Origin: Dehalococcoidia bacterium
Lineage (GTDB): Bacteria; Chloroflexota; Dehalococcoidia; GIF9; AB-539-J10
Reading direction: 5' to 3'
NCBI GenBank assembly: GCA_030606165.1
Contig: JAUWGZ010000003.1
Span: forward strand, 1 to 36,834
Length of the DNA: 36,834 nucleotides
The notes under the pieces are model-generated. The model made no database searches. It was given only the letters and a program-made list of their open reading frames with translations, and was not told where the DNA came from. Below are positions 4,791-36,041 of this stretch, piece after piece. The position numbers and the translations under genes were made by a program. The stretch's first letter is position 1, and every line of letters starts with the position of its first letter.

Positions 4791-6137
4791 TCAGTAGCGT
4801 TTAGCTTGCCGTGTAGGCTTTACATTGCCCCGGTAATCGGGAGCGGTGATGTTGAATACCAGGCTTATCATTGGGTCCACCATTCGTGAACTGATTCGTG
4901 TTTCAATCTCGTCTAAAGAGAGACATGTAGTGACCACCATTGGCAACTTGGCATTATAACGGTAGTTTATCAATTGGTATAGCTTCTCCTGAGCCCAGGG
5001 CGTGGCCGATTGTTCCCCGAAGTCATCGAGTATCAGCAATGGAACTTCTTTGATCCTCTCAGAAAACTCGTCGTAGGATATTTTGCTATCCGGACTGAAT
5101 GTAGAACGTAAATGGTCGAGAAGGTCAGGAACAACCACAAAAAAGACTGGTTTTCCCTGCGCCAGCTGAAAATTAGCGATAGCCGCTGCCAGATGAGTTT
5201 TGCCACAACCATTGATACCGTGGAATATCAACCAGCCTTCCGGGGAGCGAGCGAATTCTACTGCTAAGTTGAAAGCCTGGCGCAAGTTTTGCCGCTGTTC
5301 CAGAGGAAGTTCCAGTCTTTTGTGGTCAAAATTATCAAAGGTCATATTCCGTAATAGCTCTAATTTTAAGCCACCCTGGGATTCCAGGGGCGATGCTGGC
5401 TCAATCGTCCATACCTGGCAGAACTCATTATTGGCAAGATGGCCGCGTAAGCGTTCATCCATTCTTTCCAGCGGTATATCGGTGATAATTACCGTGGCCA
5501 GCCTGGCATTGAAGCGATGATGAAGGAGTTGCTCTAGCTTCTCTTTAGCCCAGGTAGTAGCGCTTCCCAGAGTAAGGTCATCAAGCACTAATAGAGGCAC
5601 ATTCTTTACTCGCTCAAACAGCTCGTCATAAGTGGTGTCACTTGTGGGGCTGAAAGCGGAGCGGAGGTGGTCAAGGAGGTCAGCAGCACCGATATAAAAC
5701 ACAGGTTCCCCCAAGCTGAGACGGTGATTAGCGATAGCACAAGCCAGGTGTGTTTTACCAGAGCCGCTGGGACCTAAAAATACCAGCCAACCCTCGGGAT
5801 TATCAGCAAAGACTTTGGCAGCCTGGTAAACCTGAGCAAAGTGCTCCTGAGATTCTTCGCTTCGCTCAGAATGACGGGTAGTCCTTCCTTTAGGAGATAA
5901 ATTGTCAAAGGTAAGCTGCGACAGGGAACCCAAATTGCTGTATTTCTCAAGATACTCTGTTTTTTTCTTTCTCAGCTCCCCCTTACTGCATTGGCAGGGT
6001 ACCACCCGGCTGAAATCAACTTGCCCTGAATCCAGAGCAGGATGAACAAAGCCCGCCCCTTTGCAAACAGGGCAGATTTCACCTGCGCCTTCTTCTATCG
6101 AGGGCAAGGGAGCATTACCTTCTGACCATGTGTCCAT
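4791..6137 (-). CDS. Tandem DnaC/IstB-type AAA+ ATPase (putative helicase loader) with N-terminal Cys cluster
   Basis: Two Walker A (GPSGSGKTHLA, GINGCGKTHLA) and two Walker B (LLVLDDL, LLILDDF); N-terminal CPVCKGAG...CQC. ORF opens at 6227; ATG at 6137 (MDTWSEG) preferred to reduce overlap with the upstream gene. Confidence 0.85.
   Translation of the reverse strand: MDTWSEGNAPLPSIEEGAGEICPVCKGAGFVHPALDSGQVDFSRVVPCQCSKGELRKKKTEYLEKYSNLGSLSQLTFDNLSPKGRTTRHSERSEESQEHFAQVYQAAKVFADNPEGWLVFLGPSGSGKTHLACAIANHRLSLGEPVFYIGAADLLDHLRSAFSPTSDTTYDELFERVKNVPLLVLDDLTLGSATTWAKEKLEQLLHHRFNARLATVIITDIPLERMDERLRGHLANNEFCQVWTIEPASPLESQGGLKLELLRNMTFDNFDHKRLELPLEQRQNLRQAFNLAVEFARSPEGWLIFHGINGCGKTHLAAAIANFQLAQGKPVFFVVVPDLLDHLRSTFSPDSKISYDEFSERIKEVPLLILDDFGEQSATPWAQEKLYQLINYRYNAKLPMVVTTCLSLDEIETRISSRMVDPMISLVFNITAPDYRGNVKPTRQAKRY
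5851..5876. repeat. Interspersed-repeat-like sequence inside the DnaC-like CDS
   Basis: gattcttcgcttcgctcagaatgacg, giving RHSERSEESQ in the protein; matches a repeat type common in many bacterial genomes. Confidence 0.7.
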
Positions 6138-6762
6138 ATCGGCCCTTGATGTATTTGTCAGGGTCAATCTTCTTAATACGTCTCCTATGTTCTCCACTGT
6201 CCTTACCTTCGCTAGCCCATCTTTCAAGGATGCGGGCGATATATTTCCAACTGCGCTTATTCAGCGTAACTGCTTCCTTAAAGGCTTCTTCAATCCACTG
6301 GGGTGGATAAAGCTTCTCCGCTTCCTTAAGTTCTTCAACAATCAGGGGCGTTATCATGCCGATATTCTGCTCGTAGAGAGCAAAGATGTTGACAGCCTGC
6401 CCGCCAGGGCTTGGCAGGCGGGCCGGCGGCTGATGGCTATCAGCGGTCAGAGAGTAAACATCCTCGAGCACTCCATTTATATTTAAAGTCGAGTGTAATA
6501 GAGCACCGTGCTCTACAGCCGAGTTCAAAGCCTGGCGGAGTGTCTTCTCGCCCATCGTAGCCAATAGTTCATGGGATAGCAATTCCTTATAAGTGACAAA
6601 ATAGGGACGCTCTTGCTTTCGCAGGATAAGATAAGAGACATATAACACTATCTTAAGTTCAGCCAGGTCTTGAATTTTAGGTATCGCCTGGGTAAAGAAA
6701 GAGTCAGGCAAGGAGATAAAATCTGTTTTCCTTTGAGAGCTTGCTAATTGCCGGTTAGGCAT
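6115..6762 (-). CDS. DnaD-domain replication protein
   Basis: N-terminal winged-helix-like region; C-terminal LYEQNIGMITPLIVEELKEAEKLYPPQWIEEAFKEAVTLNKRSWKYIARILERWASEG is DnaD-like; adjacent to dnaB. Confidence 0.75.
   Translation of the reverse strand: MPNRQLASSQRKTDFISLPDSFFTQAIPKIQDLAELKIVLYVSYLILRKQERPYFVTYKELLSHELLATMGEKTLRQALNSAVEHGALLHSTLNINGVLEDVYSLTADSHQPPARLPSPGGQAVNIFALYEQNIGMITPLIVEELKEAEKLYPPQWIEEAFKEAVTLNKRSWKYIARILERWASEGKDSGEHRRRIKKIDPDKYIKGRYGHMVRR
6396..6422. repeat. GC-rich imperfect inverted repeat inside the DnaD-like CDS
   Basis: cctgcccgccagggcttggcaggcggg, encoded in the interdomain linker (PARLPSPGGQA). Confidence 0.5.
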
Positions 6763-13221: not shown

Positions 13222-14337
13222 ATGGCTAGCATGGAGATTCAACAAACACAATCCTTGCAGGCACGGCAAGAGTTCAAATTGATTATGCGACTGGAACAGG
13301 CTGGTTTGCTGGAGATGCCCGAAGAGGAGTTCAACAGGCTTACCACCGAGGTAGAAAGCAGCCCCTTGTTTAAAAAGTTATATCGGAAGGAGAGAATAAT
13401 TCGCTATCAGAGATATCCTAAGACGGATATTTCTCCTCGCTTTTATCAGCTTAATGAAGAGATTGCCGCCGGGACAGGCACTCTTGATATCGAATCCCTT
13501 TTATCTGACAAAGAAGATGTACTTCGTCGGATAAAGAAAATAGGTAGGGAGAATTTTGAGCGATATTTCTTATATCCTGAACCTGGGGTAAGCGTAGGAG
13601 AGGTCGCTAAAGAGTGCAATTTGGAGCTTGCAGAGGTTGAGGAGATAAATAGGCTCATTAACGAATTCTCCATTATGAACGAGTTTTACAACCCTTCTGC
13701 TCTCAGTTCAGAACATGGAATTTACTACTCCAAGGTCGCTTCGATAGAAAGGGGGGCTGAGGGTTTTATTATCGGCTATCTCTCACCTTCTTATGCTCGG
13801 GGAAGATATTCGATTGACTATGAGAGATTTGAGGAATTGAAGGGCAGCGGAGTTGTCAGTGGTGCTGAGGCAAAAGAAATCAGGCAGCTATTTAAGAGGC
13901 TAGAGCTAATCAATAGCCGTAAGGACACGGTAACTCGGATATTGCAAGGGATTGTGGAAAAGCAAGCACCCTATTTCGAATCCGGTAACGGCAAAGCTGT
14001 CCTGCCATTTAGCCAAAAGGAGCTAGCTGAAAGGATTGGGGTCGTTCCAAGCTCAATTAGCCGCGCCATTGGCGGCAAAAGCCTTGAGACGCCCTGGGGT
14101 GAAGAGAAAGCTCTTAAGGATTTCTTTCCTCGGCCGAGAATGTTCAGGAAGGAACTGGTCAGGCAGCTTCTTGAAACAGGGGAGGAATTCCCCTCTGATG
14201 AAGCGATTAAAGCTAAACTTGAACAAACATTTGGCGTTTCTATTTCCCGTCGCTCAATAGCAGATTTAAGAAAGGAGTTGAAATTTCCCTCGGCTTGGAA
14301 GAGAAAACAAGCTTTGCCTCAGCAGAGGAAACTATGA
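13222..14337 (+). CDS. rpoN: Divergent, short sigma-54 (RpoN)-like factor
   Basis: N-terminal Region I-like QTQSLQARQEFKLIMRLEQAGLLEMPEEEFNRLTTEVESSPLF; C-terminal HTH KELAERIGVVPSSISRAIGGKSLETPWGEEKALKDFF; RpoN-box-like ISRRSIADLRKEL followed by KRKQ. Confidence 0.75.
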   Translation: MASMEIQQTQSLQARQEFKLIMRLEQAGLLEMPEEEFNRLTTEVESSPLFKKLYRKERIIRYQRYPKTDISPRFYQLNEEIAAGTGTLDIESLLSDKEDVLRRIKKIGRENFERYFLYPEPGVSVGEVAKECNLELAEVEEINRLINEFSIMNEFYNPSALSSEHGIYYSKVASIERGAEGFIIGYLSPSYARGRYSIDYERFEELKGSGVVSGAEAKEIRQLFKRLELINSRKDTVTRILQGIVEKQAPYFESGNGKAVLPFSQKELAERIGVVPSSISRAIGGKSLETPWGEEKALKDFFPRPRMFRKELVRQLLETGEEFPSDEAIKAKLEQTFGVSISRRSIADLRKELKFPSAWKRKQALPQQRKL

Positions 14338-15560
14338 CTGATCATCCCACTCCAAAGAGTACATGGCAGCGCTGGAAGGATAGCATTGCAATGAAAACCA
14401 TTAAATGGTTACCGGAGAACCAGGTGTCTAGGGGTGTGCGAAGCCCACACTTCTGGATAATCGCTGCGCTAATGGCAGTTCTTACGCTCGTTTACTATGC
14501 GGGATACACTCCCTTAGCCCAATTCGGAAGCTTTTTCACCGATGCTTTTCCTCACGATTTGCATCGAACTCTGTTTTTAATTCCCATAATCTACGCAGCT
14601 CTAACTTTCAGAGTGCGGGGGGCCCTGGGTGCTTCGTTTGTTTTCTTGTGTGTTGTGTTGCCACGTACCTTTTACTCCCCATACACTGACCCGCTAGTCA
14701 GGCCGCTTCTCCTTGTCCTGTTTACCGCTTTCCTCGGGGTATTAACTGCAATGCTGATAGATCGAGTTGAGAAAGAAGAAAAGGCTCACGTCGAGCTAAA
14801 TATAGCTCACCAAAAGCTTAGCACCTATGTTCAGCAGCTAAAGGAAAGCCAAGATCAACTCATCCAGGCTGAAAAGCTGACCTCCCTGGGTCAGATGGCT
14901 GCCTCCATCGCTCACGAAATCAATAATCCTCTGGCCGGTGTCCTGGTCTACACAAGGTTGCTATCAAAGAAATTAACTGAGGATACTGCTAGGAAGGAGG
15001 AATCCTTAGATTACCTTGCCAAGATGGAATCAGAGGTGAGTCGTTGCTCAAGGATAATCCGAAACCTCCTGGATTTTGCTCGGCAGACGCAGCCAACCTT
15101 GAGGCTTGTGGACATTAACCAGGTTATAGAACAGGTCTTGGCCATGGTAGGCCATCAAGCTCAACTTCAAAACGTTGAGGTTGTGAAAGAGTTTAGCCCA
15201 TCCTTGCCTAAGGTCATGGCTGACTTCGACCAGCTTCAGCAGATATTTACCAATCTCACTCTTAATGCTATCCAGGCAATGCCTGATGGGGGCAGGCTGA
15301 CCATTCGCAGCTCAGCGGTGGATAGCGAGGTCAGGATCGATGTCCAGGATACAGGCTGTGGTATATCAAAAGAGAACATGGGCAAACTTTTCACCCCTTT
15401 CTTCACCACCAAGGCAAAAGGCAAGGGTGTAGGGTTAGGATTAGCTGTAGTTCATGGGATTATTGAGAGGCACAAGGGAAGAATCAAAGTACAAAGTGAG
15501 GTGGGGAAGGGAACCACCTTCAGCGTCTACTTGGGAGGCCACGACGATGAAAAGGGTTAA
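14334..15560 (+). CDS. Membrane sensor histidine kinase
   Basis: N-terminal TM helices; SIAHEINNPLAGVLVYTRLL H-box; N box NLTLNAIQAMPDGG; DTGCGI; GVGLGLAVVHGIIERHKG. ATGA overlap with the sigma gene. Confidence 0.92.
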   Translation: MTDHPTPKSTWQRWKDSIAMKTIKWLPENQVSRGVRSPHFWIIAALMAVLTLVYYAGYTPLAQFGSFFTDAFPHDLHRTLFLIPIIYAALTFRVRGALGASFVFLCVVLPRTFYSPYTDPLVRPLLLVLFTAFLGVLTAMLIDRVEKEEKAHVELNIAHQKLSTYVQQLKESQDQLIQAEKLTSLGQMAASIAHEINNPLAGVLVYTRLLSKKLTEDTARKEESLDYLAKMESEVSRCSRIIRNLLDFARQTQPTLRLVDINQVIEQVLAMVGHQAQLQNVEVVKEFSPSLPKVMADFDQLQQIFTNLTLNAIQAMPDGGRLTIRSSAVDSEVRIDVQDTGCGISKENMGKLFTPFFTTKAKGKGVGLGLAVVHGIIERHKGRIKVQSEVGKGTTFSVYLGGHDDEKG

Positions 15561-16893
15561 AATACTCGTGGTTGATGATGAGGCTATTGTCCGCGAGTCG
15601 CTAGGCGACTGGCTCAAGGATGTTGGCTATCAGGTTTTCACCGCTGAAAACGGTCACAAGGCGTTAGAGGTAATTGAGAAGGAAAAGCCAGGCATCATGA
15701 TTGCCGATCTGGTGATGCCAGGTATGGATGGTATTGAGTTGATGAAAAAAGCTAAAGCACAGCAACCCAAGATTGAGGTTATTATCATCACAGCCTATGC
15801 CAGCATTCCCACCGCCATCACTGCCATGAAGGAAGGGGCATACGATTACATTGAAAAGCCTTTTTGTCCCGAGAGAGCCGAATTCCTGGTCGAAAAATTA
15901 GCTGAACATCAGGAACTAGTTGAGGAAAACCTCTCCCTGCGGCAGAGATTGGAAGACCGTTACCGCTTTGAGAATATCATCGCGAAAAGCTCCAAGATGC
16001 AGCGGCTGATTGAGCTAATAAAGGTTGTGGGCAAAAGCAACGCCACCATATTGATCACAGGCGAGAGTGGCACAGGGAAGGAGTTGGTGGCACGTGCCAT
16101 TCACTCTCAGAGCCATCGCCGGAACAAGCCCTTTGTCGCTGTTAGTTGTGCCGCTTTGCCTGAAAGCCTCTTGGAAAGTGAGCTATTTGGCCATGAGAAA
16201 GGTTCCTTCACGGGAGCTTATGCTCAAAAGAAAGGTAAATTCGAGTTCGCCAATGGGGGGACACTGTTTTTGGACGAAGTCGGCGAGATGAGTGCCAATA
16301 TCCAGGTCCACCTGTTAAGGGTCTTAGAAGAGAAAGAATTTACTCGTGTCGGTGGCAATGAGCCAATCAGGGTTGATGTAAGAGTTATTTCAGCGACTAA
16401 TAAGGACTTAAGAAAGGCCATAGAAAAGCAGGAATTCCGGGAGGACCTTTATTACCGGCTCAATGTAGTTAACATTGAATTGCCTCCCTTAAGGGAAAGA
16501 AAGGAGGACGTCCCTCTATTAGCTGAACATTTCTTGCATAAGTTTGCAATGGAGAATCAGAAGGAGATCACAGGGTTCTCTCTCGAGGCCATGGAGCTTG
16601 CGCTTGATTATGACTGGCCGGGCAATGTCCGTGAGCTGGAAAATGCTATTGAAAGGGCAGTCATCCTGGCTAAGGATAGCATTATCACTATTGCTGACCT
16701 GCCTCAGGAAAATCTGTCGCCGGCTCGTTTAGCTTCAACAGGGAAAAATCTGAAGGAAATAGAGAGGAACCATGTCTTGAATATTCTCCGTGAAACCGGC
16801 GAGAACTACAGTAAGGCAGCTAGAATTTTGGGAATCAGTAGAATGACACTCTACAACAAGGCAAAGGAGTATGGTTTTGATGTAAAAAAATAG
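15547..16893 (+). CDS. NtrC-type response regulator (REC-AAA+-Fis HTH)
   Basis: VKILVVDDEAIVRESLGDW; GESGTGKELVARAIH; HEKGSFTGAYAQKKGKFEFANGGTLFLDEVGEM; Fis-like C-terminus NYSKAARILGISRMTLYNKAKEYG. ORF opens at 15454; ATG 15547 preferred. Confidence 0.95.
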   Translation: MKRVKILVVDDEAIVRESLGDWLKDVGYQVFTAENGHKALEVIEKEKPGIMIADLVMPGMDGIELMKKAKAQQPKIEVIIITAYASIPTAITAMKEGAYDYIEKPFCPERAEFLVEKLAEHQELVEENLSLRQRLEDRYRFENIIAKSSKMQRLIELIKVVGKSNATILITGESGTGKELVARAIHSQSHRRNKPFVAVSCAALPESLLESELFGHEKGSFTGAYAQKKGKFEFANGGTLFLDEVGEMSANIQVHLLRVLEEKEFTRVGGNEPIRVDVRVISATNKDLRKAIEKQEFREDLYYRLNVVNIELPPLRERKEDVPLLAEHFLHKFAMENQKEITGFSLEAMELALDYDWPGNVRELENAIERAVILAKDSIITIADLPQENLSPARLASTGKNLKEIERNHVLNILRETGENYSKAARILGISRMTLYNKAKEYGFDVKK

Positions 16894-16952: not shown

Positions 16953-16986
16953 AAAAAGGCTACCCGGAAATTCGGGTAGCCTTTTT
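16953..16986. terminator. Bidirectional rho-independent terminator
   Basis: aaaaaggctacccg-gaaatt-cgggtagccttttt, perfect 14-bp stem with T-run. Confidence 0.92.
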
Positions 16987-16990
16987 ACTT

Positions 16991-17006
16991 TGGCAAGAAA
17001 ATTGCG
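16991..17006 (+). promoter_or_regulatory. Sigma-54-type -24/-12 promoter
   Basis: TGGCAAGAAAATTGCG versus TGGCACG-N4-TTGCW; correct GG-N10-GC spacing. Confidence 0.75.
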
Positions 17007-17079
17007 ACACCAAAGGGTGAAGGAGATAAAAATGAATAAACAAACAATGCCAGCAAAACAACAAAAGGAGGTGAAAGAA

Positions 17080-18108
17080 ATGAAACCAGTGTTAATCGTT
17101 GAAGACGAAACCATCATGCGGGAGTCGCTCCGAGACTGGCTTAAGGAGGAAGGCTATGAAGTGGACACTGCTGAGTCGGGTGAAGAGGCGCTGCAGAAGA
17201 TCGGAGAAAAGGAATTTGGTGTTGCCGTGCTCGACCTAAAGCTGCCGGGGAAAAATGGGCTCGAGGTGTTAAGAGAGGCTACAGCTCAAAATCCAAAGTT
17301 TAAGGGGGTTATCATTACTGCTTATCCTTCAGTGGAGACGGCAGTGGAGGCGATGAAAATCGGGGCAGTGAGTTACATGGTCAAGCCCTTTGCCCCCGAC
17401 GCCTTGGAGAAAGCGATTGAGGAGGTTCTCGGCCCTGTTCAGGCGGAAGTAAAACCCAAGGAGGGTAAGGTTGAGGAAGCCGCAGCGAAACTCCCGGTAG
17501 TTGAGGAGGCTGAGGTTGAGGAAGCTATAGCAATAACTGAGGAGGAAGTTCCTGCCCACCTGGAGCAAGGCCAGACTTACTTCCAAGCAGGCCACTATAA
17601 GGAGGCACTGAGAGAATTTCAGTCCATTTTACACATCGCTCCAGGACACATAGAAACTCGAGTCTGGGTCCGAAAGGCGAAGGAAGAAATGGTGAAGCCC
17701 AGGGTTGAGGTGCCTGAAGGTGAGGGTGCTGTTGAAGAAGCGGTGAAAATCAACGAGTGTCTCTGGTCAAAGATGGGAGTGGTCTCTTACAGGATCTGCA
17801 CCCGGAATTATGACTGCCTTACCTGCGAGTTTGACCAGACGATGCAGGATAAAATAGCCGCTGGTGAAGCGTCAGAGCTCGACGAGGCTCTGGAGAAGTT
17901 TAAGGAGCTACCGGGACCACAGAGGATTTGCCGTTATGCCCTCAAGGGCGATGTCTCCTATCGGCTTTGCACGCGTTTGTTCCAATGTGCAACCTGCGAA
18001 TTTGGTCAGTTTATGCAGGATGCCCTAGAGCAAAAGATGGCCAAGCTAGCAGCTCGTCGGGAGGCCCTGCGTAAAAAGGAAACAAGCGCTAAAGGCGAGG
18101 TTAGTTAG
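17080..18108 (+). CDS. Response regulator receiver protein with TPR-like segment and two four-Cys motifs
   Basis: REC domain (LIVEDETIMRESLRDWL...VLDLKLPG...TAYPS...KPF); TPR-like YFQAGHYKEALREFQSILHIAPGH; CLWSKMGVVSYRICTRNYDCLTCEFDQTMQD and CRYALKGDVSYRLCTRLFQCATCEFGQFMQD. AAAGGAGGTG RBS before ATG 17080. Confidence 0.85.
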   Translation: MKPVLIVEDETIMRESLRDWLKEEGYEVDTAESGEEALQKIGEKEFGVAVLDLKLPGKNGLEVLREATAQNPKFKGVIITAYPSVETAVEAMKIGAVSYMVKPFAPDALEKAIEEVLGPVQAEVKPKEGKVEEAAAKLPVVEEAEVEEAIAITEEEVPAHLEQGQTYFQAGHYKEALREFQSILHIAPGHIETRVWVRKAKEEMVKPRVEVPEGEGAVEEAVKINECLWSKMGVVSYRICTRNYDCLTCEFDQTMQDKIAAGEASELDEALEKFKELPGPQRICRYALKGDVSYRLCTRLFQCATCEFGQFMQDALEQKMAKLAARREALRKKETSAKGEVS

Positions 18109-18479: not shown

Positions 18480-19628
18480 ATGGAAGTGCTAAGTCCTTAC
18501 AAGGAAGCCACAGATGTGATACTCGAGGCTGGTGGCGAACCACTCAAATTGTGTTACCAGTGTGGTCTTTGCACCGGTATTTGTCCCTGGAACCTGGTCC
18601 GAAGTTTTGTCGTTCGCCGCATCATGCATGAAGCTCAGCTTGGGGCAACTGATTTTGGCAGCGAAGATGTCTGGACTTGCGTCACCTGTCGAGCTTGTGT
18701 TCAGCGCTGCCCCCGAGGCGTCGAGATAATAGATGTCATGAGGGCTATGCGCCGAGCCGTAGCTAGCCTGGGCATCGGCGTTGTCCCTGATGCCCTGAGA
18801 ATTTCAGCTAAGAACATCGCTGGCGTAGGTAATCCACTTGGTGAGGCACCAGAAAAGCGAGATGACTGGGCCAAAGAACTTAAGGTGAAAAGTTTTTCCT
18901 CGGGTACTGAAATACTTTATTTCCCTTGCTGTATTCCGTCCTATGATCCTGATGTAAAAACAGTGGCTCGATCTACCGCCACAATCTTCAATAAGCTTGG
19001 GATTAATTATGGCCTTATAGGCACTGAAGCAAAATGCTGCGGTGAGGCAATTAGAAAAGCCGGGTATGAAGATACGTTTCAAAGTCTGGCCCAAAACAAT
19101 ATTAATCTCTTTACCAGTAATGGTGTCAAAACCGTGGTAGTTTCCTCACCGCACTGCTACCACACTTTCAAAAATGAGTATCCCGAGCTCGGAGGCAAAT
19201 TTGAAGTAATTCATATCACCCAATACCTGGCTTCACTTATCGAGCAGGGGAAATTGAAGCTCTCTAAAAAGATAAACAAAAAGGTAATCTATTCCGACCC
19301 CTGCTATTTGGGGAGACACAATGAGGTCTATGACGAGCCAAGGAGAGTTTTGCAAAGCATTCCCGGCCTGGAATTAATAGAATTTCCCGATGCTCGTGAG
19401 GATGCTCTTTGTTGTGGTGGTGGTGGCGGTAGAATCTGGATGGATACGCCGAAAGGGGAAAGGTTCTCTGATATAAGGGTGGAGCAAGCGGTTGAAAGGG
19501 GCGCTGATATTATAGCTCTGGCCTGCCCTTACTGCTTCCTAAACTATAGGGATAGTGTGCTCTCCATGGGCAAGGCAGAGACCATGCAGGTTAAAGATAT
19601 CGCTGAGCTTGTTGCTGAGGCAATGTAA
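18480..19628 (+). CDS. Fused HdrC/HdrB-like (HdrD-type) heterodisulfide reductase subunit
   Basis: Two 4Fe-4S motifs (CYQCGLCTGICP, CVTCRACVQRCP) followed by CCG-domain motifs (KCCGEA, DPCYLGRHNEVYDEPRRVL, CCGGGGGRIW, CPYC). Confidence 0.9.
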   Translation: MEVLSPYKEATDVILEAGGEPLKLCYQCGLCTGICPWNLVRSFVVRRIMHEAQLGATDFGSEDVWTCVTCRACVQRCPRGVEIIDVMRAMRRAVASLGIGVVPDALRISAKNIAGVGNPLGEAPEKRDDWAKELKVKSFSSGTEILYFPCCIPSYDPDVKTVARSTATIFNKLGINYGLIGTEAKCCGEAIRKAGYEDTFQSLAQNNINLFTSNGVKTVVVSSPHCYHTFKNEYPELGGKFEVIHITQYLASLIEQGKLKLSKKINKKVIYSDPCYLGRHNEVYDEPRRVLQSIPGLELIEFPDAREDALCCGGGGGRIWMDTPKGERFSDIRVEQAVERGADIIALACPYCFLNYRDSVLSMGKAETMQVKDIAELVAEAM

Positions 19629-19644
19629 TAATGGAGGAATCAAA

Positions 19645-22600
19645 ATGGCAGATGTAAAGATTGGCGTTTACATCTGCCACTGCGGCTTAAACATCGCTGG
19701 CGTAGTGAATGTGGAAGAGGTAGCCAGGTATGCTGGAACTCTACCCAATGTAGTGGTCTCTCGTGACTACAGGTATATGTGTTCTGATCCAGGGCAGGAT
19801 CTCATAAAGAAGGACATCAAAGAGCTAGGGCTCAATCGAGTTGTGGTTGCTTCTTGCTCGCCAAGAATGCATGAGCCTACATTTCGTAAGGCTTGTCAGG
19901 ATGCTGGGCTAAATCCTTATTTGTATGAACATGCTAACATCCGGGAGCACTGCTCCTGGCCCCATGCTACAGAAAAGAAGCGAGCTACAGAGAAAGCCAA
20001 GGATCTTGTGCGTGCTGCAGTAAGGCGTGTTTACTGGCATGAAGCTCTAGAGGTTAAGGAGGTTCCAGTTAATCCTAACGTCTTAGTTGTTGGTGGGGGG
20101 ATCGCTGGCATTCAGGCTGCTTTAGATATTGCTGATGGGGGTAAGAAAGTCTATATGGTAGAACGCGACCCATCCATCGGCGGACACATGATCCAGCTCG
20201 ATAGGACCTTCCCCACTTTGGACTGTTCGGAATGCATTCTCACACCAAAAATGACTGACGTTGGTCACCATCCTAATATTGAATTAATGACCTCAAGCGA
20301 AGTGGAGGAGGTTTCAGGCTATATTGGCAATTTCAAGGTCAAAGTGAGAAAGAAGCCTAGATATGTCGACCTTGACAAATGTAACAGCTGTGGAGACTGT
20401 GCTAAGGCATGTCCTGTTGAGGTGCCTGATGAGTTTGAAATGAATTTGCACATGAGAAAGGCAGCGTATCTTCCTCTCCCCCAGGCTGTCCCTGCTGCTT
20501 TTGCCATTGACAAAAGAGGCATCTCATCATGTCGCATTGCTTGCCCAGCTGGGGTCAACGCTCATGGCTATGTCGCCCTTATTTCGCAGGGCAAGTTTAA
20601 GGAGGCTTTGGAGCTAGTTAGACGAACTATGCCATTTGCCGGGGTTCTTGGGCGGGTCTGCACCCACCCCTGTGAGCTAGACTGTGAGCGGGGGAAGCTT
20701 GATGAATCTATTAGCATCCGTGCTTTGAAGCGCTTTGTAGCTGACTATGAGCTGAGGGTGGGTAGAGAAAAGGCAACCCCAATTGAAAGGACGAAAGAAG
20801 ATAAAGTGGCTGTTATTGGCTCTGGGCCTGCTGGGCTTGCCTGTGCTTACGATTTGATAAGAGAAGGTTATGCCATTACCGTTTTCGAGGCCCTCCCTCA
20901 GGCAGGCGGTCTTCTGAGTTATGGTATCCCTGATTATAGATTGCCCAAAGAGGTAGTGGATAACGACATCAGTTACATACAAGAACTAGGGGTGGAAATC
21001 AAGACAAAGACCCCGGTGAAAAATCTTACTGAAATCTTCAATCAAGGATATAAAGCCATTTTCCTGGGCACAGGTGCTGGCGTCAGCCAAAAGATGGGAA
21101 TTCCTGGTGAGGAAACCAAAGGGGTGATCCATTCCCTTGACTTTCTAAGGATGGTGAATTCTGGAGTGGAGATGAAATTGGGGAGCCGGGTGGCGGTTAT
21201 TGGTGGCGGCAACGCAGCTATTGATGCTGCCAGAGCAGCATTACGCCTCGGGGCAAAAGAAGTTGCCATCGTTTATCGTCGTTCTCAAGTTGAAATGCCC
21301 GCTATAAGAACAGAAATTGAGGAAGCCGAGCGAGAAGGAATCAAATTCCACTCCTTGGCTGCTCCAGCTAAAATCCTGTCCAAAGATGGTCAATTATCTG
21401 CAGTGGAATGTATCAGGATGGAATTAGGCGAACCCGACGCTAGTGGTCGCCGACGTCCCGTACCTATCAAGGGTTCGGAGTTCACCATGAATGTCGACAA
21501 TTGCGTAATCGCCATTGGTCAGGCCGTGGATAAAACAATGCTGCCTAAGGAGTTAGACTACACCGGTTGGGGCACACTTGAGGTCGACCCCGTTACTTTA
21601 CAAACAAATATTGATAGTGTTTTCGCTGGCGGCGATTTAGTCTCTGGACCTGCTGATGTTGTTGCCGCGGTTGCTGCTGGCAAGGAAGCAGCTATTTCCA
21701 TCGATCGCTATCTAAGAGGCATTAGCCTGACGGAGGAAAGGCAAATAACGCCGAAAAAAGTAGAGAAGGTATCAACGGAAGGAGTCAAGCCAAAAGCAAG
21801 AGCTGCCATGCCACTACTTCAAATTAGTGAGAGAAAAGGCTCCTTTGCCGAGGTTGAACAAGGCTTTGATGAAAAAACAGCCATTGAGGAGGCTAAGCGT
21901 TGTCTCAATTGTGGCGTGTGTTCGGAATGCTTTGAATGCGTGAAGGTGTGTGAACAGGAAGCGATTAACCACGAAATGAAAGAGGAGACGGTTGAGATAG
22001 AGGTAGGTTCAGCCATTCTGGCTACTGGTTACGATCAGTTTGATCCTAGTGTCATAACCCACTACGGATACAAGAAGTACGATAATGTTCTAACTGGACT
22101 TGAATTTGAGAGGATAACCTGTGCTGGAGGACCAACCCAGGGACAAATTCAACTTAAAGACGGTAGAGAACCAGAAAGTGTAGCCATAGTCCATTGCGTA
22201 GGCAGCCGCGATAAGAATTACCATGAGTATTGCTCCAGAGTGTGCTGCATGTATGGTCTCAAATATGCGGAATTGATAAAAGAATTTACCAAAGCCGAGG
22301 TATATGAATTTTATATTGACATGCGCTGCTTTGGAGAAGCCTATGAGGAATTTTACCAACACGTTTCGGAGATGGGAGTCAATTTCATCAGGGGCAAAGT
22401 TGCCAAAATAACCGACCAAGCTATAACTGAAGAGGAAAAGGGGAAACTGGTTGCTGTGGCTGAGGATACCTTACTGGGGAAGATAGTCCGTGTCCCAGTA
22501 GACATGGTTATCCTCTGTGCTGCCCTGCAAGCTCGGTCTGATGCCAGTGAGGTCGCTAGCCGTTTTACCATAGGTCAAAGAGGCGACAAATTCTTCTTGG

Positions 22601-23010
22601 AAACCCATCCTAAACTTGCTCCGGTAAACACGGCGACAGACGGAGTTTTCATCGCTGGTTGCTGTGAAGCACCAAGGGATATTCCCGATACCGTAGCCCA
22701 GGCATCCGCGGCAGCATCTAAGGCTTTGTCTTTGATAAGCAAAGGGAAGGTCACCACGGAAGCAGCTGTATCCCACGTTGATGAAACAATTTGTCATGGA
22801 TGTGGACGTTGTGAGGAAATTTGCACTTTTCACGCCCCCACAATCATTAGCAAGAATGGAGGCGTGGTTTCCAGTATAAATGAAGCCCTATGTAAAGGAT
22901 GCGGAGCATGTGCTGTTGTCTGTCCCACGGGAGCAATATCCATTAGGCATTTCAATATGCAGGAAATAGAGAGTTTGGTTGATGGCTTATTGGAGGTGTA
23001 CCATGGCTGA
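19645..23010 (+). CDS. HdrA with inserted GltD-like NAD(P)H oxidoreductase domain (HdrL-like)
   Basis: HdrA FAD motif [21 protein letters not shown] and DCSECILTPKM; central GltD (VAVIGSGPAGLACAYDLIREG, VAVIGGGNAAIDAARAALRLGA); HdrA C-terminus HCVGSRDKNYHEYCSRVCCM; two C-terminal ferredoxin motifs. ATG 19645 (GGAGG) preferred over 19555. Confidence 0.92.
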   Translation: MADVKIGVYICHCGLNIAGVVNVEEVARYAGTLPNVVVSRDYRYMCSDPGQDLIKKDIKELGLNRVVVASCSPRMHEPTFRKACQDAGLNPYLYEHANIREHCSWPHATEKKRATEKAKDLVRAAVRRVYWHEALEVKEVPVNPNVLVVGGGIAGIQAALDIADGGKKVYMVERDPSIGGHMIQLDRTFPTLDCSECILTPKMTDVGHHPNIELMTSSEVEEVSGYIGNFKVKVRKKPRYVDLDKCNSCGDCAKACPVEVPDEFEMNLHMRKAAYLPLPQAVPAAFAIDKRGISSCRIACPAGVNAHGYVALISQGKFKEALELVRRTMPFAGVLGRVCTHPCELDCERGKLDESISIRALKRFVADYELRVGREKATPIERTKEDKVAVIGSGPAGLACAYDLIREGYAITVFEALPQAGGLLSYGIPDYRLPKEVVDNDISYIQELGVEIKTKTPVKNLTEIFNQGYKAIFLGTGAGVSQKMGIPGEETKGVIHSLDFLRMVNSGVEMKLGSRVAVIGGGNAAIDAARAALRLGAKEVAIVYRRSQVEMPAIRTEIEEAEREGIKFHSLAAPAKILSKDGQLSAVECIRMELGEPDASGRRRPVPIKGSEFTMNVDNCVIAIGQAVDKTMLPKELDYTGWGTLEVDPVTLQTNIDSVFAGGDLVSGPADVVAAVAAGKEAAISIDRYLRGISLTEERQITPKKVEKVSTEGVKPKARAAMPLLQISERKGSFAEVEQGFDEKTAIEEAKRCLNCGVCSECFECVKVCEQEAINHEMKEETVEIEVGSAILATGYDQFDPSVITHYGYKKYDNVLTGLEFERITCAGGPTQGQIQLKDGREPESVAIVHCVGSRDKNYHEYCSRVCCMYGLKYAELIKEFTKAEVYEFYIDMRCFGEAYEEFYQHVSEMGVNFIRGKVAKITDQAITEEEKGKLVAVAEDTLLGKIVRVPVDMVILCAALQARSDASEVASRFTIGQRGDKFFLETHPKLAPVNTATDGVFIAGCCEAPRDIPDTVAQASAAASKALSLISKGKVTTEAAVSHVDETICHGCGRCEEICTFHAPTIISKNGGVVSSINEALCKGCGACAVVCPTGAISIRHFNMQEIESLVDGLLEVYHG

Positions 23011-23437
23011 GTTTGAGCCAAAGATTGTTGCTTTTGCCTGTAACTGGTGTACTTATGCTGCAGCCGATTTAGCCGGGACAGCCCGGCTTCAATATCCTCC
23101 CAATGTCTATATTGTGAGGCTGATGTGTAGCGGGATGATAAATGCCGATTATATCTTAAGAGCGTTTGAAAAAGGAGCTGATGGAGTCATAGTCTCTGGT
23201 TGTAAGTACACAGATTGCCATTATATCGATGGCCCGGTAAAGTGCGATGCCATGTTTGCCAAGCTAAAGAGGCTAGTCCATATTCTTGGTTTGGAGGACG
23301 AAAGACTAAGGCGCGAAATGATATCTACTTCCGAGGGAACGGTGTTTGCCAGAGTAGTCAAGGAATTTGTCGATCAACTTAAGAAGCTAGGGCCTTCACC
23401 CTTTTCATCTTTAAGAAAGGAGAAGGTAGCGGTTTGA
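23003..23437 (+). CDS. mvhD: MvhD-type hydrogenase/Hdr linker iron-sulfur subunit, copy 1
   Basis: PKIVAFACNWCTYAAADLAGTARLQYPPNVYIVRLMCSG...GCKYTDCHY. Confidence 0.93.
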   Translation: MAEFEPKIVAFACNWCTYAAADLAGTARLQYPPNVYIVRLMCSGMINADYILRAFEKGADGVIVSGCKYTDCHYIDGPVKCDAMFAKLKRLVHILGLEDERLRREMISTSEGTVFARVVKEFVDQLKKLGPSPFSSLRKEKVAV

Positions 23438-24582
23438 GTTTAGAGGACATTATTCAAGAAACTAAGACCTATTACTGCCTGGAGTGTGGCAAATGTACTA
23501 GTGTATGTCCTGTCGCCAAATATGATCCAGCCTTCTCTCCGCGGATGATGATTGAAAATGCTCTACTGGGATTTGAGAATGACTTGATCTTCAACCGAGA
23601 ACTTTTCTCCTGCTTAACTTGTTACACTTGTCAGCAGAGATGCCCCTCTGATGTTGATTTTCCTGTTTTCATCCGCAAAGCCCGCGCTATGGCCCAGGAT
23701 AATGGACAGCATGGAATTTGTGCCCACTCGGGGCAACTACAATCTCTGGCACGACTTATGACAAGTCTTGACATTAAGCAAAGAAGATTGGAATGGCTAT
23801 CTGATGAATATCGTACTTCTGATGACTCCGATGTTCTTTTTTGGGTTGGGTGTGCTCCATATTTTGAACCCATCTTTGAGGATATCGAATTCAATGCTCT
23901 GGACATAACCAAGGCCAGCCTCAAGACCTTGAACTTGCTGGGGATCGAGCCCAAGCTGCTTCCTAATGAGAAATGCTGTGGTCATGATGCGCTTTGGACT
24001 GGCGATATAGAGACATTTAAGAAACTAGCCGAGCACAATGCCACCCAAATAAAAGAGGCCGGCGTGAAGAAAATAATATTCTCCTGCCCTGAAGGCTACC
24101 GAACATTCAAGCTGGATTATCCAAATTACGGCTTTGATGTAGGTTGTGAGTTACAACATATCTCTGAATTTCTGGCGGAGAGAATAGAAAAGGATGGGTT
24201 GAAGTTTAATGAAGTGAAAAAAAAGGTGACCTACCAAGATCCATGCAGGTTGGGAAGGCATCTGGGAGTCTATGATGCCCCTCGAAAGATACTTGAATCT
24301 ATTCCCGGCATAGAACTTGTCGAGATGCAATATAGTAGATGGGATTCTATTTGCTGTGGCACCAGTGCTTGGACTAATTGTGACTCGTGCTCCAACATGC
24401 TCCGGGCGGAAAGGTTGTCTGAGGCAACTGCAACCGGGGCTGAGACGCTCATAACCTGTTGTCCCAAATGTCAAACCCATTTTAGATGTGCCATGATAGA
24501 TAAGGGAGAGGAAAAGCGATCAATGCCAAATATTGAGATAATGGATTTGGCAAACCTGGTAGCAAGCGCTATGGGAGACTAA
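23434..24582 (+). CDS. Fused HdrC/HdrB-like (HdrD-type) subunit, second paralog; TTG start
   Basis: [67 protein letters not shown]. Confidence 0.88.
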
Positions 24583-24584
24583 TA

Positions 24585-25580
24585 ATGAACGGAGAGAACG
24601 GACGTAAATCGGTATTAGTAATCGGTGGTGGCATCGCTGGAATTCAGTCCTCACTTGACCTGGCCAATATGGGCTTTAAGGTGTATTTGGTGGAAAAGAC
24701 GCCCAGCATCGGGGGGAGGATGTCACAACTAGATAAGACCTTTCCCACTAATGATTGTGCCATGTGTATTCTCGCTCCTAAGATGATAGAGGCAAGCCAG
24801 CATCCTAATATAGAACTTCTGACCTATTCCGAGGTCGAGGGAGTCTCGGGAGAGGTAGGAAATTTCAGGGTCAAGGTTAAGAAGAAGGCGACGTACGTTG
24901 ATTGGGATAAGTGCACCGGCTGCGGGGAATGCTCTCAGATGGAGTTAACTGACACAAAGGAGTTTGAGGGTGAAATTTGGGTTGACAGGATTAGGATAGA
25001 CGAGGCGAGTTGCATCCAGTGTGGTGAATGCGCCCAAGCCTGTGTTGAAGAGAATAAGGAAAAGCATGCGATGACCAACATTGTGCTTGAAAGGCGAAAT
25101 TTCACTGAGCTTCCTCCAGAAGAACGAGAAGGAAGAGAACCTGAAACGTTGGCGCAGCGGATAGCTTTAATGGACGAGAAATCACGGATGGATTTTTGGC
25201 AGAAAGAACTCAGCAGATGCATAAAGTGCTTCGGATGCCGTGATGTTTGCCCTGTATGGATTTATGACAAAACTGAACTAGAAGATCCAGAGTGGATCAC
25301 GCCCGGGGAAATACCTCCTGCTGTTCCTCTCTTTCACATAATAAGGGCTTATCGCGTTGGCGATAACTGCATTAACTGTGGTATGTGCGAAGAGACTTGT
25401 CCTATGAGTATACCTCTGCGTACTATCCAGCAGCTTATGCAGCGTCAACCTCCTGAGTCAATTTTTGAAATCACTCCGGGCTTAGATGCGGAGACGAAAA
25501 AGAAACTCGTGCAAGCAGTGCGCAAGCAACCCAAAGCCGAGAAGAAACAACCTGCAGCCAAGAGGGAGGGAAGGAAATGA
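24585..25580 (+). CDS. HdrA N-terminal half (FAD-binding) fused to ferredoxin domains; lacks HdrA C-terminal half
   Basis: [47 protein letters not shown]; Cys clusters [44 protein letters not shown]. Confidence 0.88.
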
Positions 25581-27616
25581 ATAGTGACTTTGTATTAACC
25601 GTATGTCCTTTCTGTGGCTGTGGCTGTCAGTTTTATCTCCAGACTATGGATAATGAGATAGCTGGAGTGGTTCCTTGCAAGACCGACGAAATAAGTGAAG
25701 GAAAGCTTTGTATAAAGGGAAGAAATGCAGCAGATTTTGTCAACCACCCTGACCGGCTCAAGTCACCCTTGGTAAAAAGAGATGGCAAATTTGAACCGGC
25801 AAGCTGGGATGAAGCTTTAGACATCGTGAGTAAACAGCTAAGCCAGATAAAGCAAATACACGGCCCTGATTCCGTAGGTGTCCTTTCATCTGCTAAGTGT
25901 ACCAATGAGGAAAATTTTGTCCTGATGAAATTTGCCCGGGCGGTCATTGGCACAAATAACGTTGACCATTGTGCTCGACTTTGTCATGCCTCGACGGTGC
26001 TGGGTTTAGTCAAGTCTTTTGGCAGTGGAGCGATGACAAACAGCGTACCAGAAGTGGAAGGTGCGGATTGTATTTTCGTGATAGGAAGCAATACGATAGA
26101 GCAGCATCCCCTCATAAGCTCAAGGGTTCTACGGGCCAAGGAAAAGGGAGCCAAGTTGATTGTGGTTGACCCGCGCCGTACACCTCTAGTTGAGTTTGCT
26201 GATGTTTATCTTCAGCATAAGCCAGGAACGGATGTTTGCCTGCTTAATGGCATTATGAATCTCATCCTTTCTTGGGATTTGGCTGACAAGGATTTCATTG
26301 CCCAGCGTACCGAAGGGTTTGAGGAATTGGAAAGGAAAGTGAAAGAATACCCACCAGAGAGAGTGTGCGAAATAACCGGAGTTGACCAAGCTGCTTTGGA
26401 GGGGGCAGCTCGAACTTATGGCGAAGCCAAAAAAGCGAGCATCCTATATGCCATGGGTATAACGCAGCATACCACCGGCACTGATAACGTGGAATCTTGC
26501 GCCAATCTGGCAATGCTCACCGGGAATGTTGGTCGCGAGTCAACAGGGGTAAATCCGCTTCGCGGGCAAAACAATGTCCAGGGTGCCTGTGATGTGGGCG
26601 GCTTGCCAAATGTTTACTCGGGCTATCAATCAGTTACAGATGGGACGGCAAGAGCCAAATTTGAAAAAGCCTGGGGGGTTAAGCTGCCACAAGAGGTAGG
26701 GCTCACTGTTACTGAGATGCCAGATGCTGCTCTTAATGGTTCGCTTAAAGCAATGTATATAATGGGAGAGAATCCCATGCTTTCTGACCCGGATATAAAT
26801 CACTTAAAGAAGGCTCTCAGTTCTCTCGATTTCATGGTGGTACAAGATATATTCCTGTCTGAGACGGCACAGTTCGCCCATGTGATATTGCCAGCCTGTT
26901 CCTTCGCTGAGAAGGAAGGCACTTTTACCACAACGGATAGAAGAGTTCAAAGAGTAAGGAAGGCAATAGAGCCCATAGGTGATTCTAAGCCGGACTGGCT
27001 CATAGTGGGTGAGCTTGGCCAAAAAATGGGGGGCAAAGGATTTGATTATAAGTCAGCTCAAGACATTATGAAGGAAATCGCACAGCTTACCCCCAGTTAT
27101 GCCGGTATTTCCTATGAGCGATTGGATGATGGAGAGGTTCTGGCTTGGCCATGCCCTTCGAAAGGACATCGCGGAACTAAGTTCCTTCACAAGGATGCCT
27201 TTACCAGAGGTAAGGGAAAGTTCTTTGCCATTGAGTATAAAGAGCCTGCTGAATTACCAGATAAGGAATATCCTTTTATCTTGACTACGGGTAGGTTAAT
27301 GTTTCAGTTTCATACTGGGACTATGACTCGCAGGATTCCTATCCTGGAGAGGGAACTCCCTACCGGTTTTGTGGAACTCAATACTGAAGATGCGAAAAAA
27401 CTCTCGATAGCACAGGGGGAAAAGGTAAAAGTAAAATCACGGCGAGGCGAAATTGAGATAAAGGCTTTCGTTACGGATGGAATTCTCCCAGGAGTGGTAT
27501 TCATACCTTTTCACTTTGCTGAATGTCCCGCCAATGAGCTTACCAGCAGCAACCTTGACCCTGAAGCTAAAATCCCCGAGTTTAAAGTCTGCGCTGTGAA
27601 AGTCTACAAGGGGTGA
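25577..27616 (+). CDS. fdhA: Formate dehydrogenase catalytic (molybdopterin) subunit, Cys form
   Basis: [13 protein letters not shown]...[28 protein letters not shown] with Cys (TGT) at the Sec/Cys position; C-terminal molydopterin dinucleotide-binding region. Confidence 0.88.
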
Positions 27617-27621
27617 TAAAC

Positions 27622-29064
27622 ATGGCTGAAAAGGAAACAACCGTAATAACGGAAGCAGAGAAAATTTTAGATAGGGAAAACATAATAGCGAAAGCAGAGG
27701 AGGTCTTAGACCAAGGCTATGATGGCATCATTGGGCTTCGAAAAAGATGGGGACATGTAAGCCCTTATCTTTTTACAACTAAGGACGAGCTTAAAGAACT
27801 GGAACTGGAGCCCCGATATAACCTGGCAACTTTTGTTCGTCAACTCAAAAATAAATGGCCTGATGCAAGATTGGGGATTGTTTCTAGAGGATGTGACGAA
27901 AGGGCTTTAGATAAACTTGAAGAACTAGGTGTTTTTAGTAAAGAGGGCGTGGTTTTTATAGGTATAACCTGTTCCATGGAGCAGGCGGAGGAATGTAACT
28001 GTGAGAAGCCAATCTATACTCCCTTGGATTGCACCGGCTGCTGGAAGTGTATGGAAGAGTGCCCGAAGGATGCTATCACACGGATAAATGTTTGCCCCAT
28101 CCTGGTGCCTGATCAGTTTAACTTGGGCCTGGGGCAGAGAAAGGCCATCTATTTACCCTTCCCTCAGGCAGTGCCTAAGAAAAACGTCAGAGATCCCAAT
28201 CACTGCCTACGAATCACAGAGAAGCTCGAATGTAAGGGATGTGAAAACGCTTGCGAAGCTAAGGCAATCGTTCATGACATGGCTGACCAGATTGTGGATC
28301 TGGATGTTGGCGCCATTATAGTCGCCACTGGCTTAGATTTCTACGATGTCTCAGGACTGGAAGAGTATGGCTATGGAAAGATAAAGAATGTCGTCACGGC
28401 TATGGAATATGAGAGATTAACCTCAGCATCAGGACCCACTTTGGGATCGCTTGACCGACCATCAGATGGCAAGGTCCCTCACAATATAGCCTTCATTCAA
28501 TGCGTTGGCTCCCGCGATTTTAGGTGTGAACCATATTGTTCTAGCGTCTGCTGCATGCATGCCACTAAGGAAGCCATGATGGCATATGAGCATGAGCCAG
28601 GGACGAAGTCCACTGTCTTTTATATGGATATGAGGGCTGTAGGCAAAAGGTTCCAGGAATATATTGCCAGGGCTAAAAGCGACTATAATGTGACTTATAT
28701 CAGGAGTCGCCCGGGCAGGATCGAAGTTAACCCTGAGAATGATAACCCTATTATCTGGTATGAGGATACAACTACTGGGGAAATAAAGAAATTTGAGGCA
28801 GAAATAGTGGTTCTTGCTCAAGCGATGATTCCTCAAATCACAAAGGACCTAGCAGAAATATTAGGTATAGAGTTAGATGAAAATGGCTTTGTGAAGACTC
28901 CAGGTGGATTCTTGCAACCTCTGGATACTACAAAGCCTGGCATCTTTGCTTGCGGCTATGTCCACAGTCCACGTGATATCCCGGATTCTGTAACCCAGGC
29001 CTCGGGGGCAGCGGGCAGAGCTGCTGAAGAGATTGCTTCGCTCCACTCGCAAGGAGGCAAGTGA
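27622..29064 (+). CDS. FrhB/FdhB-like N-terminal segment + ferredoxin + HdrA C-terminal half
   Basis: GIVSRGCDERALDKLEELG...IGITCSMEQAEEC; CTGCWKCMEECP; RKAIYLPFPQAVP, VGAIIVATG, QCVGSRDFRCEPYCSSVCCMHATKEA, GIFACGYVHSPRDIPDSVTQASGAA. No N-terminal GxGxxG. ATG 27622. Confidence 0.85.
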   Translation: MAEKETTVITEAEKILDRENIIAKAEEVLDQGYDGIIGLRKRWGHVSPYLFTTKDELKELELEPRYNLATFVRQLKNKWPDARLGIVSRGCDERALDKLEELGVFSKEGVVFIGITCSMEQAEECNCEKPIYTPLDCTGCWKCMEECPKDAITRINVCPILVPDQFNLGLGQRKAIYLPFPQAVPKKNVRDPNHCLRITEKLECKGCENACEAKAIVHDMADQIVDLDVGAIIVATGLDFYDVSGLEEYGYGKIKNVVTAMEYERLTSASGPTLGSLDRPSDGKVPHNIAFIQCVGSRDFRCEPYCSSVCCMHATKEAMMAYEHEPGTKSTVFYMDMRAVGKRFQEYIARAKSDYNVTYIRSRPGRIEVNPENDNPIIWYEDTTTGEIKKFEAEIVVLAQAMIPQITKDLAEILGIELDENGFVKTPGGFLQPLDTTKPGIFACGYVHSPRDIPDSVTQASGAAGRAAEEIASLHSQGGK

Positions 29065-29065
29065 A

Positions 29066-30745: not shown

Positions 30746-31609
30746 ATGAATTGGGATGGAGTTCACCAAATGTTTCGGATTATTTCTAGAGAGACTTTAG
30801 GGACGAAAATTCATCTGTTCAAAATCGAAGCACCGGCAATTGCTAGAAAAGCGCTGGCGGGGCAGTTTGTTGTCATCAGGATTGATGAAAGGGGCGAGCG
30901 TATTCCTCTGACGCTTGCTGACTGGAATGGGAAGGAAGGCAGTGTTACCCTGGTGTTTCTGGAAGCGGGAGCGACAACCTTTAGGCTGGCGTTGCTGAAA
31001 GCCGGTGACTTCATTGCTGACTTTGTTGGTCCCCTTGGTGTACCATCGCATATTGACAAATTTGGTACTGTAGCCTGTGTGGCGGGAGGGGTTGGTGCTG
31101 CGTCAATAACGCCTATTGCCAAGGCACTGAAGGAGAAGGGAAACAAGATTATCTCCATTTTGGGGGCACGGAGCAAGGACTTGCTCTTTTGGGAAGATAA
31201 ACTACGCAGTGTCAGCCAGCGACTAATAGTTACTACTGATGATGGCACGTATGGTCGCAAAGGGGTAGTAACTGAGCCACTGAAGGAGCTGCTTGAGAGT
31301 GAGGAGAAGGTTGACCGAGTCATTGCCATTGGCCCGAGCATCATGATGAAGTTCTGTGCCCAGACCACCCTGCCTTTCGGGGTGAAGACTATTGTTAGCC
31401 TGAATCCAATAATGGTTGATGGCACCGGGATGTGTGGCTGCTGCCGGGTATCCGTTGGTGGCGTAACCAAGTTTGCCTGCGTGGACGGGCCTGATTTTGA
31501 CGGGCATCAGGTAGACTGGGACTTGCTCTCAGCCCGACTGCGTATTTATCTTGATGAAGAAAAACGCTCTTTTGAGCAGTGGCAGGCTCGGATGGGCAAG
31601 CGTTCTTGA
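30746..31609 (+). CDS. nfnA: NfnA / ferredoxin-NADP+ reductase alpha (SudB-like)
   Basis: FRIISRETLGTKIHLFKIEAPAIARKALAGQFVVIRIDERGERIPLTLADW; MCGCCRVSVGG [2Fe-2S] motif. Confidence 0.9.
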   Translation: MNWDGVHQMFRIISRETLGTKIHLFKIEAPAIARKALAGQFVVIRIDERGERIPLTLADWNGKEGSVTLVFLEAGATTFRLALLKAGDFIADFVGPLGVPSHIDKFGTVACVAGGVGAASITPIAKALKEKGNKIISILGARSKDLLFWEDKLRSVSQRLIVTTDDGTYGRKGVVTEPLKELLESEEKVDRVIAIGPSIMMKFCAQTTLPFGVKTIVSLNPIMVDGTGMCGCCRVSVGGVTKFACVDGPDFDGHQVDWDLLSARLRIYLDEEKRSFEQWQARMGKRS

Positions 31610-31630
31610 ATGGAGGCCTAAGCAACATAC

Positions 31631-33160: not shown

Positions 33161-33604
33161 ATGGACAACTTTGAACCAAAAATAGTAGCTTTTTGCTGTA
33201 ACTGGTGCTCTTATGCCGGTGCTGACCTGGCTGGCACTTCTAGAATGCAATACCCCCCTGCTATCAGGATAATCAGGGTGATGTGCAGCGGCAGAGTAAG
33301 CCCTTTTTTGGTCCTTAAGGCCCTTAGCGTTGGTGCTGATGGCGTGTTAGTTCTTGGTTGCCATCCCGGTGATTGCCACTATATTGAAGGGAATTACAAG
33401 ACAATGCGCCGCATCCCGTTACTTAAGAAGGTGTTGAAGCAGTTTGGGATAGAGGAAGAAAGAGTTCGGCTGGAGTGGGTTTCTGCATCTGAAGGAGCAA
33501 AATTTGCGGAGGTAGCTAATAGTTTTACGCAATCCATAAAAAACTTGGGGCCAAGTACATTGGACAATTTAAAGCAGAGTTCTAAGGGGGCAAAGCATGG
33601 CTAA
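33161..33604 (+). CDS. mvhD: MvhD-type linker subunit, copy 2
   Basis: [41 protein letters not shown]...[18 protein letters not shown]. Confidence 0.93.
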
Positions 33605-36022: not shown

Positions 36023-36041
36023 CAAGTTTTCACGAATCGAA

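Follow-up and report, generated by a model that had tools for sequence, protein, structure and literature searches.

The window, a stretch of 36,834 nucleotides belonging to a 1.28-Mb MAG that is 81% complete, carries a two-component cluster next to an Hdr operon, and all genes from the RpoN-like gene through the hydrogenase genes are read in one direction, on the forward strand. The first gene encodes an RpoN-like protein of 371 amino acids (13222-14337; PF04552, Sigma54_DBD, E=2e-20). It is followed by a histidine kinase with a hydrophobic N-terminus (14334-15560; HisKA/HATPase_c), an NtrC-type response regulator with the order REC-sigma54 activator-HTH_8 (15547-16893) and the gene of interest (17080-18108), which encodes a receiver protein of 342 amino acids with two four-cysteine (C4) modules, here called REC-C4x2. 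Translation of this gene could also begin at an in-frame ATG at 17032, which has a ribosome-binding site of its own.

A 370-nt gap containing a hairpin separates REC-C4x2 from an HdrBC-like fusion (Fer4 + CCG; 18480-19628) that opens the Hdr operon. Downstream lie an HdrA-like fusion interrupted by a GltD/NfnB-like insert (19639-23010; 1123 amino acids, the inserted segment being Fer4_20 plus Pyr_redox); genes for MvhD, a second HdrBC and an HdrA-like Fe-S protein (23003-25580); an FdhA-like molybdopterin oxidoreductase, HdrA-like flavoproteins, a PF10418 protein and an NfnB/GltD-like oxidoreductase (25577-33028); and MvhD, the hydrogenase small and large subunits and a maturation protease (33161-36497). 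An operon of the same kind, HdrBCA-MvhD-FdhBA (Hdr-associated formate dehydrogenase), has been described for deep-sea Chloroflexi (PMC5736913), and its text, searched for histidine kinase, sigma and response regulator, makes no mention of the regulatory genes. Elsewhere in the window, a 478-amino-acid ORF (4791-6227) appears by eye to consist of two tandem DnaC-like AAA segments.

Inspection of the genomic neighbours, as the initial annotation had proposed, revealed a conserved sigma-54/NtrC cluster with Hdr genes alongside. Dehalococcoidia relatives whose contigs are intact keep the order RpoN-like-HK-NtrC-REC-C4x2-HdrBC-HdrA. Another family of the class has HdrBC-HdrA-MvhD-MvhG-MvhA-HycI-RpoN-like-HK-NtrC-REC-C4x2, so that the Hdr-Mvh operon lies just upstream.

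A receiver protein with paired four-cysteine modules

The domain order proposed from the sequence alone was borne out. The receiver domain (17089-17421; amino acids 4-114; PF00072, E=7e-29) has the acid pair, phospho-Asp, Thr and Lys of a CheY-like response regulator, and these phospho-site residues are kept in 31-32 of 32 REC-C4 proteins. An acidic linker leads to a single TPR-like segment (17554-17649; amino acids 159-190), for which the best PF07719 match (E=2e-5) falls just under the Pfam curated cut-off. The two C4 modules follow, with a basic C-terminal helix beyond module 2. The earlier statement that no recognised HTH is present also stands: Pfam and NCBIfam match the receiver (and TPR) only, with neither an HTH nor an AAA+ domain in the protein, which sets it apart from the DNA-binding response regulators (NtrC, OmpR, NarL) that carry one or the other at the C-terminus. 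The best reading of the sequence is that REC-C4x2 is a receiver protein without DNA binding.

Modules 1 (17758-17850; amino acids 227-257) and 2 (17929-18021; amino acids 284-314) were found exactly as first quoted. Each is a 31-residue unit with the spacing C-x12-C-x5-C-x2-C and the W, Y/F, E-F/Y and Q positions of the tandem C4 family. The copies are identical at 18 of 31 positions, with a local score of 102 (20,000 shuffles gave at most 54), and hold every one of the eight Cys in the protein. Four conserved Cys per copy, as originally described, were confirmed: copy-1 Cys are 98-100% conserved across 121 relatives, collected by a DNA scan that selected on the C-terminal part of one module, mostly copy 2, and mostly left copy 1 unselected. 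Across the 42 rows of an alignment, the eight Cys, one Trp, the Glu and the Gln do not vary.

That the motif might match a well-characterised domain of unrelated function was also considered, and no match above cut-offs to the Cys region was found in Pfam, NCBIfam, PHROGs or PDB sequences. No Pfam Fe-S family (PF04060, Fer4, CCG) matched the C4 region of the window protein at E<10, and the families listed at E<0.1 for the 42 relatives include none. The closest sub-threshold likeness is to zinc fingers, with PF05495 listed for 22 of the 42 relatives at E=0.003 or weaker, and the protein falls outside the CHY and other Pfam zinc fingers (16.4 bits versus a cut-off of 31.3). AlphaFold2, run on the 42-row alignment, gave a fairly confident small helical C4x2 domain (pLDDT 83.9, pTM 0.65), for which Foldseek returned nothing from the PDB at E<=10; a full-length single-sequence fold (pLDDT 48) was left out of the analysis. 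The module had no match in the plasmid collection, and we found no paper describing it, as judged from titles, abstracts or passages. The C4 pair is a widespread domain that is unmodelled in the databases searched.

Distribution and partners of the module

To follow the module beyond the window, the IUPAC DNA pattern for C-x3-[YF]-x-C-x2-C-E-[FY]-D-Q was scanned over 257 Gb of genomes. The module occurs in at least 120 loci, where a hand estimate gives about 2 by chance; weak matches such as those in G006, G027 and G470 are probably chance. The matches listed are mostly from Desulfobacterota, then Dehalococcoidia, WOR-3/Stahlbacteria and Aminicenantes, and the domain is present in 60 of 297 Desulfobacterota genomes and about 5 of 400 sampled Chloroflexota genomes.

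The module extends well beyond this regulator, and most copies are fused to a GcvH-like domain and not to a receiver. Among the matches listed, C4 usually forms a tandem pair 5' of the GcvH-like domain (PF01597), which is present in 147 C4 ORFs, against 12 with a receiver. Lipoylation of this partner was considered and rejected, as the lipoyl Lys is found in just 6 of these 147 ORFs. The C4x2-GcvH-like proteins of Desulfobacterota and WOR-3 share the tandem eight-Cys domain of REC-C4x2, often its HK/NtrC neighbours and -24/-12 promoter, and sometimes an HdrA neighbour. They differ in having a GcvH-like domain where REC-C4x2 has REC-TPR; PF01597 spans only their second half, leaving the C4 part without a family model, and has no match in the window protein, which thus falls outside the GcvH-like class. 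From its architecture, the window regulator is the receiver-fused, Chloroflexota/Aminicenantes form of the C4-pair proteins.

Other architectures include TPR-like-C4x2 without a receiver (L061, L119, L094), single modules with all four Cys and one four-module protein. Fer2-Fer4-C4-GcvH proteins are encoded immediately upstream of HdrA in L231-L233 (domains assigned with Pfam in L233), Fer2-Fer4-C4 lies next to FdhA and HdrA in L106/L192, and C4x2 stands on its own upstream of HdrA in L233. These ferredoxin-type fusions favour Fe-S in the modules, and the weak zinc-finger likeness keeps Zn a candidate. In a short form of REC-C4 (L022-L027; L216, 7217-7898), Cys1 of module 1 and Cys2-4 of module 2 are lost and Cys1 of module 2 is retained, a pattern which hints that the latter can complete module 1; a general Cys swap between modules is opposed by the single modules that keep all four Cys. 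The short genes adjoin a kinase, often with HdrA-MvhD close by and without NtrC.

The matches listed include 78 long GcvH-type loci outside Chloroflexota; 48 have an NtrC-type gene, 47 of the 48 measured distances being within 1.8 kb, and 15 have HdrA. Many C4 loci have neither an HK/NtrC nor an Hdr gene within 8 kb. Since the module recurs in several anaerobic phyla and often lies close to Hdr genes, it probably serves Hdr control as a metal-binding redox component.

Promoter-like sigma-54 sites, receiver and kinase

A -24/-12 promoter-like site, TGGCAAGAAAATTGCG, lies at 16991-17006 on the forward strand, with 2 mismatches to TGGCAC-N5-TTGCW. Just before it, downstream of the NtrC gene, is a terminator-like hairpin (16957-16989; -24.9 kcal/mol, then a T-rich end). 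With this site at the correct spacing, REC-C4x2 is predicted to be a sigma-54-dependent gene. Matches across the window as a whole are at chance level, so the evidence lies in positional conservation. At no more than 2 mismatches and within 170 nt of the start, a site precedes 13 of 16 REC-C4x2 genes (1.8% of random windows). Among the matches listed, 153 upstream regions belong to C4 genes that lack a receiver; 69 have a site with no more than 2 mismatches (background 3.0%) and 57 one with no more than 1 (background 1.3%). These counts are not phylogenetically independent and are inflated by related sequences. Scanned more widely, the clusters with REC-C4x2 had such sites 5' of REC genes and seldom elsewhere. 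HdrBC is different: a -24/-12 site was found before 0 of 8 HdrBC genes, which leaves both a promoter of this type for HdrBC itself and NtrC control of the Hdr operon unsupported. Overall, the C4-pair proteins often appear to be sigma-54-controlled and near Hdr genes.

A whole-genome search found that the RpoN-like protein holds the sole sigma-54 DNA-binding domain of the window genome, and the NtrC of the cluster is its sole strong sigma-54 activator. Sigma54_AID (region I) had no match in this genome, and the RpoN-like protein may be a reduced sigma-54. In families f1-f3, two-copy REC-C4x2 is present in 12 of 13 sigma-54-bearing genomes, the single exception being G018; G010 has REC-C4x2 without a sigma-54 match. 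At the same locus position G018 encodes a receiver followed by another kind of four-Cys unit, C-x2-C-x8-C-x7-C, present twice (L240, 7496-8351, G018:C204; CTLCHYAGMSDLCVLFETGTC and CTLCQYSGFSNPCDLLESGHC), which has no Pfam match and is also preceded by a -24/-12 site.

In a tree of 113 receivers, those of REC-C4 and a few others encoded at these loci form one group, whose sisters are the receivers of the adjacent NtrC proteins in Dehalococcoidia (support 99/90). The NtrC-type sigma-54 response regulators of the same cluster are thus the closest in their receivers, and REC-C4x2 differs from them in having neither the AAA+ activator domain nor the Fis-type HTH. One relative (L175, 5264-9083, G026:C50) has three more receiver fusions between NtrC and REC-C4x2, all with close receiver copies: one is to a GltD/NfnB-like Fe-S flavoenzyme (770 amino acids), the other two to a C-terminal domain that Pfam does not match and that by eye resembles AsnC/Lrp. 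Together, the tree and these fusions indicate that the receiver is a shuffled part of the locus. By domain content, its partners are non-DNA-binding, and several are redox or Cys-rich domains. Receivers of the REC-C4 lineage also occur behind an N-terminus that looks ribbon-helix-helix-like by eye (L186, 14218-14776; L189, 1148-1820), in genes adjoining MvhG or MvhD.

Most relatives encode a cognate kinase with an [FeFe]-hydrogenase-like sensor (PF02906, E=4e-49), in which Fer4, Fe_hyd_lg_C and FeS domains are present. Histidine kinases with an Fe-hydrogenase domain are known, and passages of PMC4324140 describe Swol_1040 of Syntrophomonas wolfei, whose sensor is of the same type; no mention of a C4 protein is made in those passages. 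The window kinase differs from the Swol_1040 type in its hydrophobic N-terminus, which takes the place of the Fe-hydrogenase domain, and Fe_hyd_lg_C has no match anywhere in the window genome. The sensor is thus swapped among sister species, being hydrophobic at the N-terminus in the window (14334-15560) and hydrogenase-like in L174 (7240-9223).

Possible roles in Hdr control

We propose, at about even confidence, that a dedicated two-component system governs Hdr-type flavin-based electron bifurcation, with REC-C4x2 as its Cys-module component. The histidine kinase, an [FeFe]-hydrogenase-like H2/redox sensor in most relatives, would phosphorylate the NtrC-type regulator. The conserved promoter and the synteny suggest that NtrC and the cluster's own sigma-54 would then act at the -24/-12 promoter of the REC-C4x2 gene. 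As the receivers of REC-C4x2 and NtrC share a recent ancestor, the same kinase can probably phosphorylate both. REC-C4x2 itself would not bind DNA, and each four-Cys module would hold one metal or Fe-S centre. Phosphorylation may gate, or redox state may report, contact of REC-C4x2 with the Hdr/Fdh/Mvh complex or with the kinase/NtrC pair, and such contact would match bifurcation capacity to redox supply. Architecture, Cys units, synteny, promoter enrichment, receiver kinship and sigma-54 co-occurrence all point this way, as do the C4 modules in Fer2-Fer4 proteins next to HdrA, the flavoenzyme fusion of L175 and the alternative four-Cys pair of G018. Against it stand the HdrBC genes without sites, the 370-nt gap and hairpin before HdrBC, the many C4 loci lacking HK/NtrC or Hdr genes within 8 kb, G010, the short REC-C4 loci without an adjacent NtrC and the lack of any PDB match, by fold or sequence, that would point to a metal.

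The suggestion of a redox-sensing output came through in part. A metal or Fe-S site fits the conserved unit and its ferredoxin/HdrA context, and the Fe-S/redox idea is plausible on these grounds; that it serves as an output was an assumption. The C4 module could just as well take in a redox signal, or carry electrons with phosphorylation-gated docking. It is a doubtful prospect that a two-component system works on an energy-conserving enzyme directly, with receiver phosphorylation switching electron flow through the bifurcating Hdr/Fdh/hydrogenase complex via paired Fe-S modules. In that case the same eight-Cys domain, joined to a receiver or a GcvH-like partner, would have this task in Dehalococcoidia and Aminicenantes as well as in WOR-3 and sulfate reducers.

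The foremost alternative, tentative as it is, makes the C4 pair itself a part of the Hdr/Fdh/Mvh complex, as an electron-carrying or adaptor subunit with two Fe-S clusters. Here the kinase would switch docking only, through the receiver, and transcription would play no part. The place of the module between Fer4 and GcvH-like domains directly upstream of HdrA, the solitary C4x2 of L233 and the fusion of a REC-C4-type receiver to a GltD/NfnB-like enzyme in L175 are all consistent with such a subunit. However, among the matches listed most C4 proteins adjoin HK/NtrC and a minority lie near HdrA within 8 kb, and the motif is unmatched to any known cluster-binding family.

It is rather unlikely that the modules bind structural zinc and mediate contact between proteins (by dimerisation or by binding of HK/NtrC) with no redox role. 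Four Cys in a 31-residue unit would suit such sites, as would the position of PF05495 as closest sub-threshold profile, but no zinc-knuckle pattern is present, hosts and neighbours are anaerobic Fe-S systems, and the module occurs inside ferredoxin-type subunits. We consider it improbable that REC-C4x2 vies with NtrC for the kinase, as a phosphate sink or in feedback, and that its Cys modules are incidental stabilisers. An intact phospho-site, kinship with the adjacent NtrC receivers and an NtrC-type promoter upstream are what feedback would predict; yet the eight Cys are near-invariant across phyla, including in proteins without a receiver, and in G018 the C4 pair is replaced by another pair of four-Cys modules. 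Despite the basic C-terminal helix after module 2, a transcription factor with a divergent nucleic-acid-binding zinc domain is very improbable, since Pfam and NCBIfam give no DNA-binding match and the same module is found in GcvH-like and ferredoxin fusions.

In the papers searched, control of HdrA-type bifurcation in anaerobes is largely undescribed. The Hdr genes of the window adjoin a conserved regulatory cassette, which includes a domain absent from the models of the searched databases. With one sigma-54, one activator and one conserved promoter, this cassette predicts a specific regulon. The eight-Cys candidate cofactor domain is also found among cultured sulfate reducers, for example in Desulfosarcina, Desulfospira and Desulfoferrobacter.
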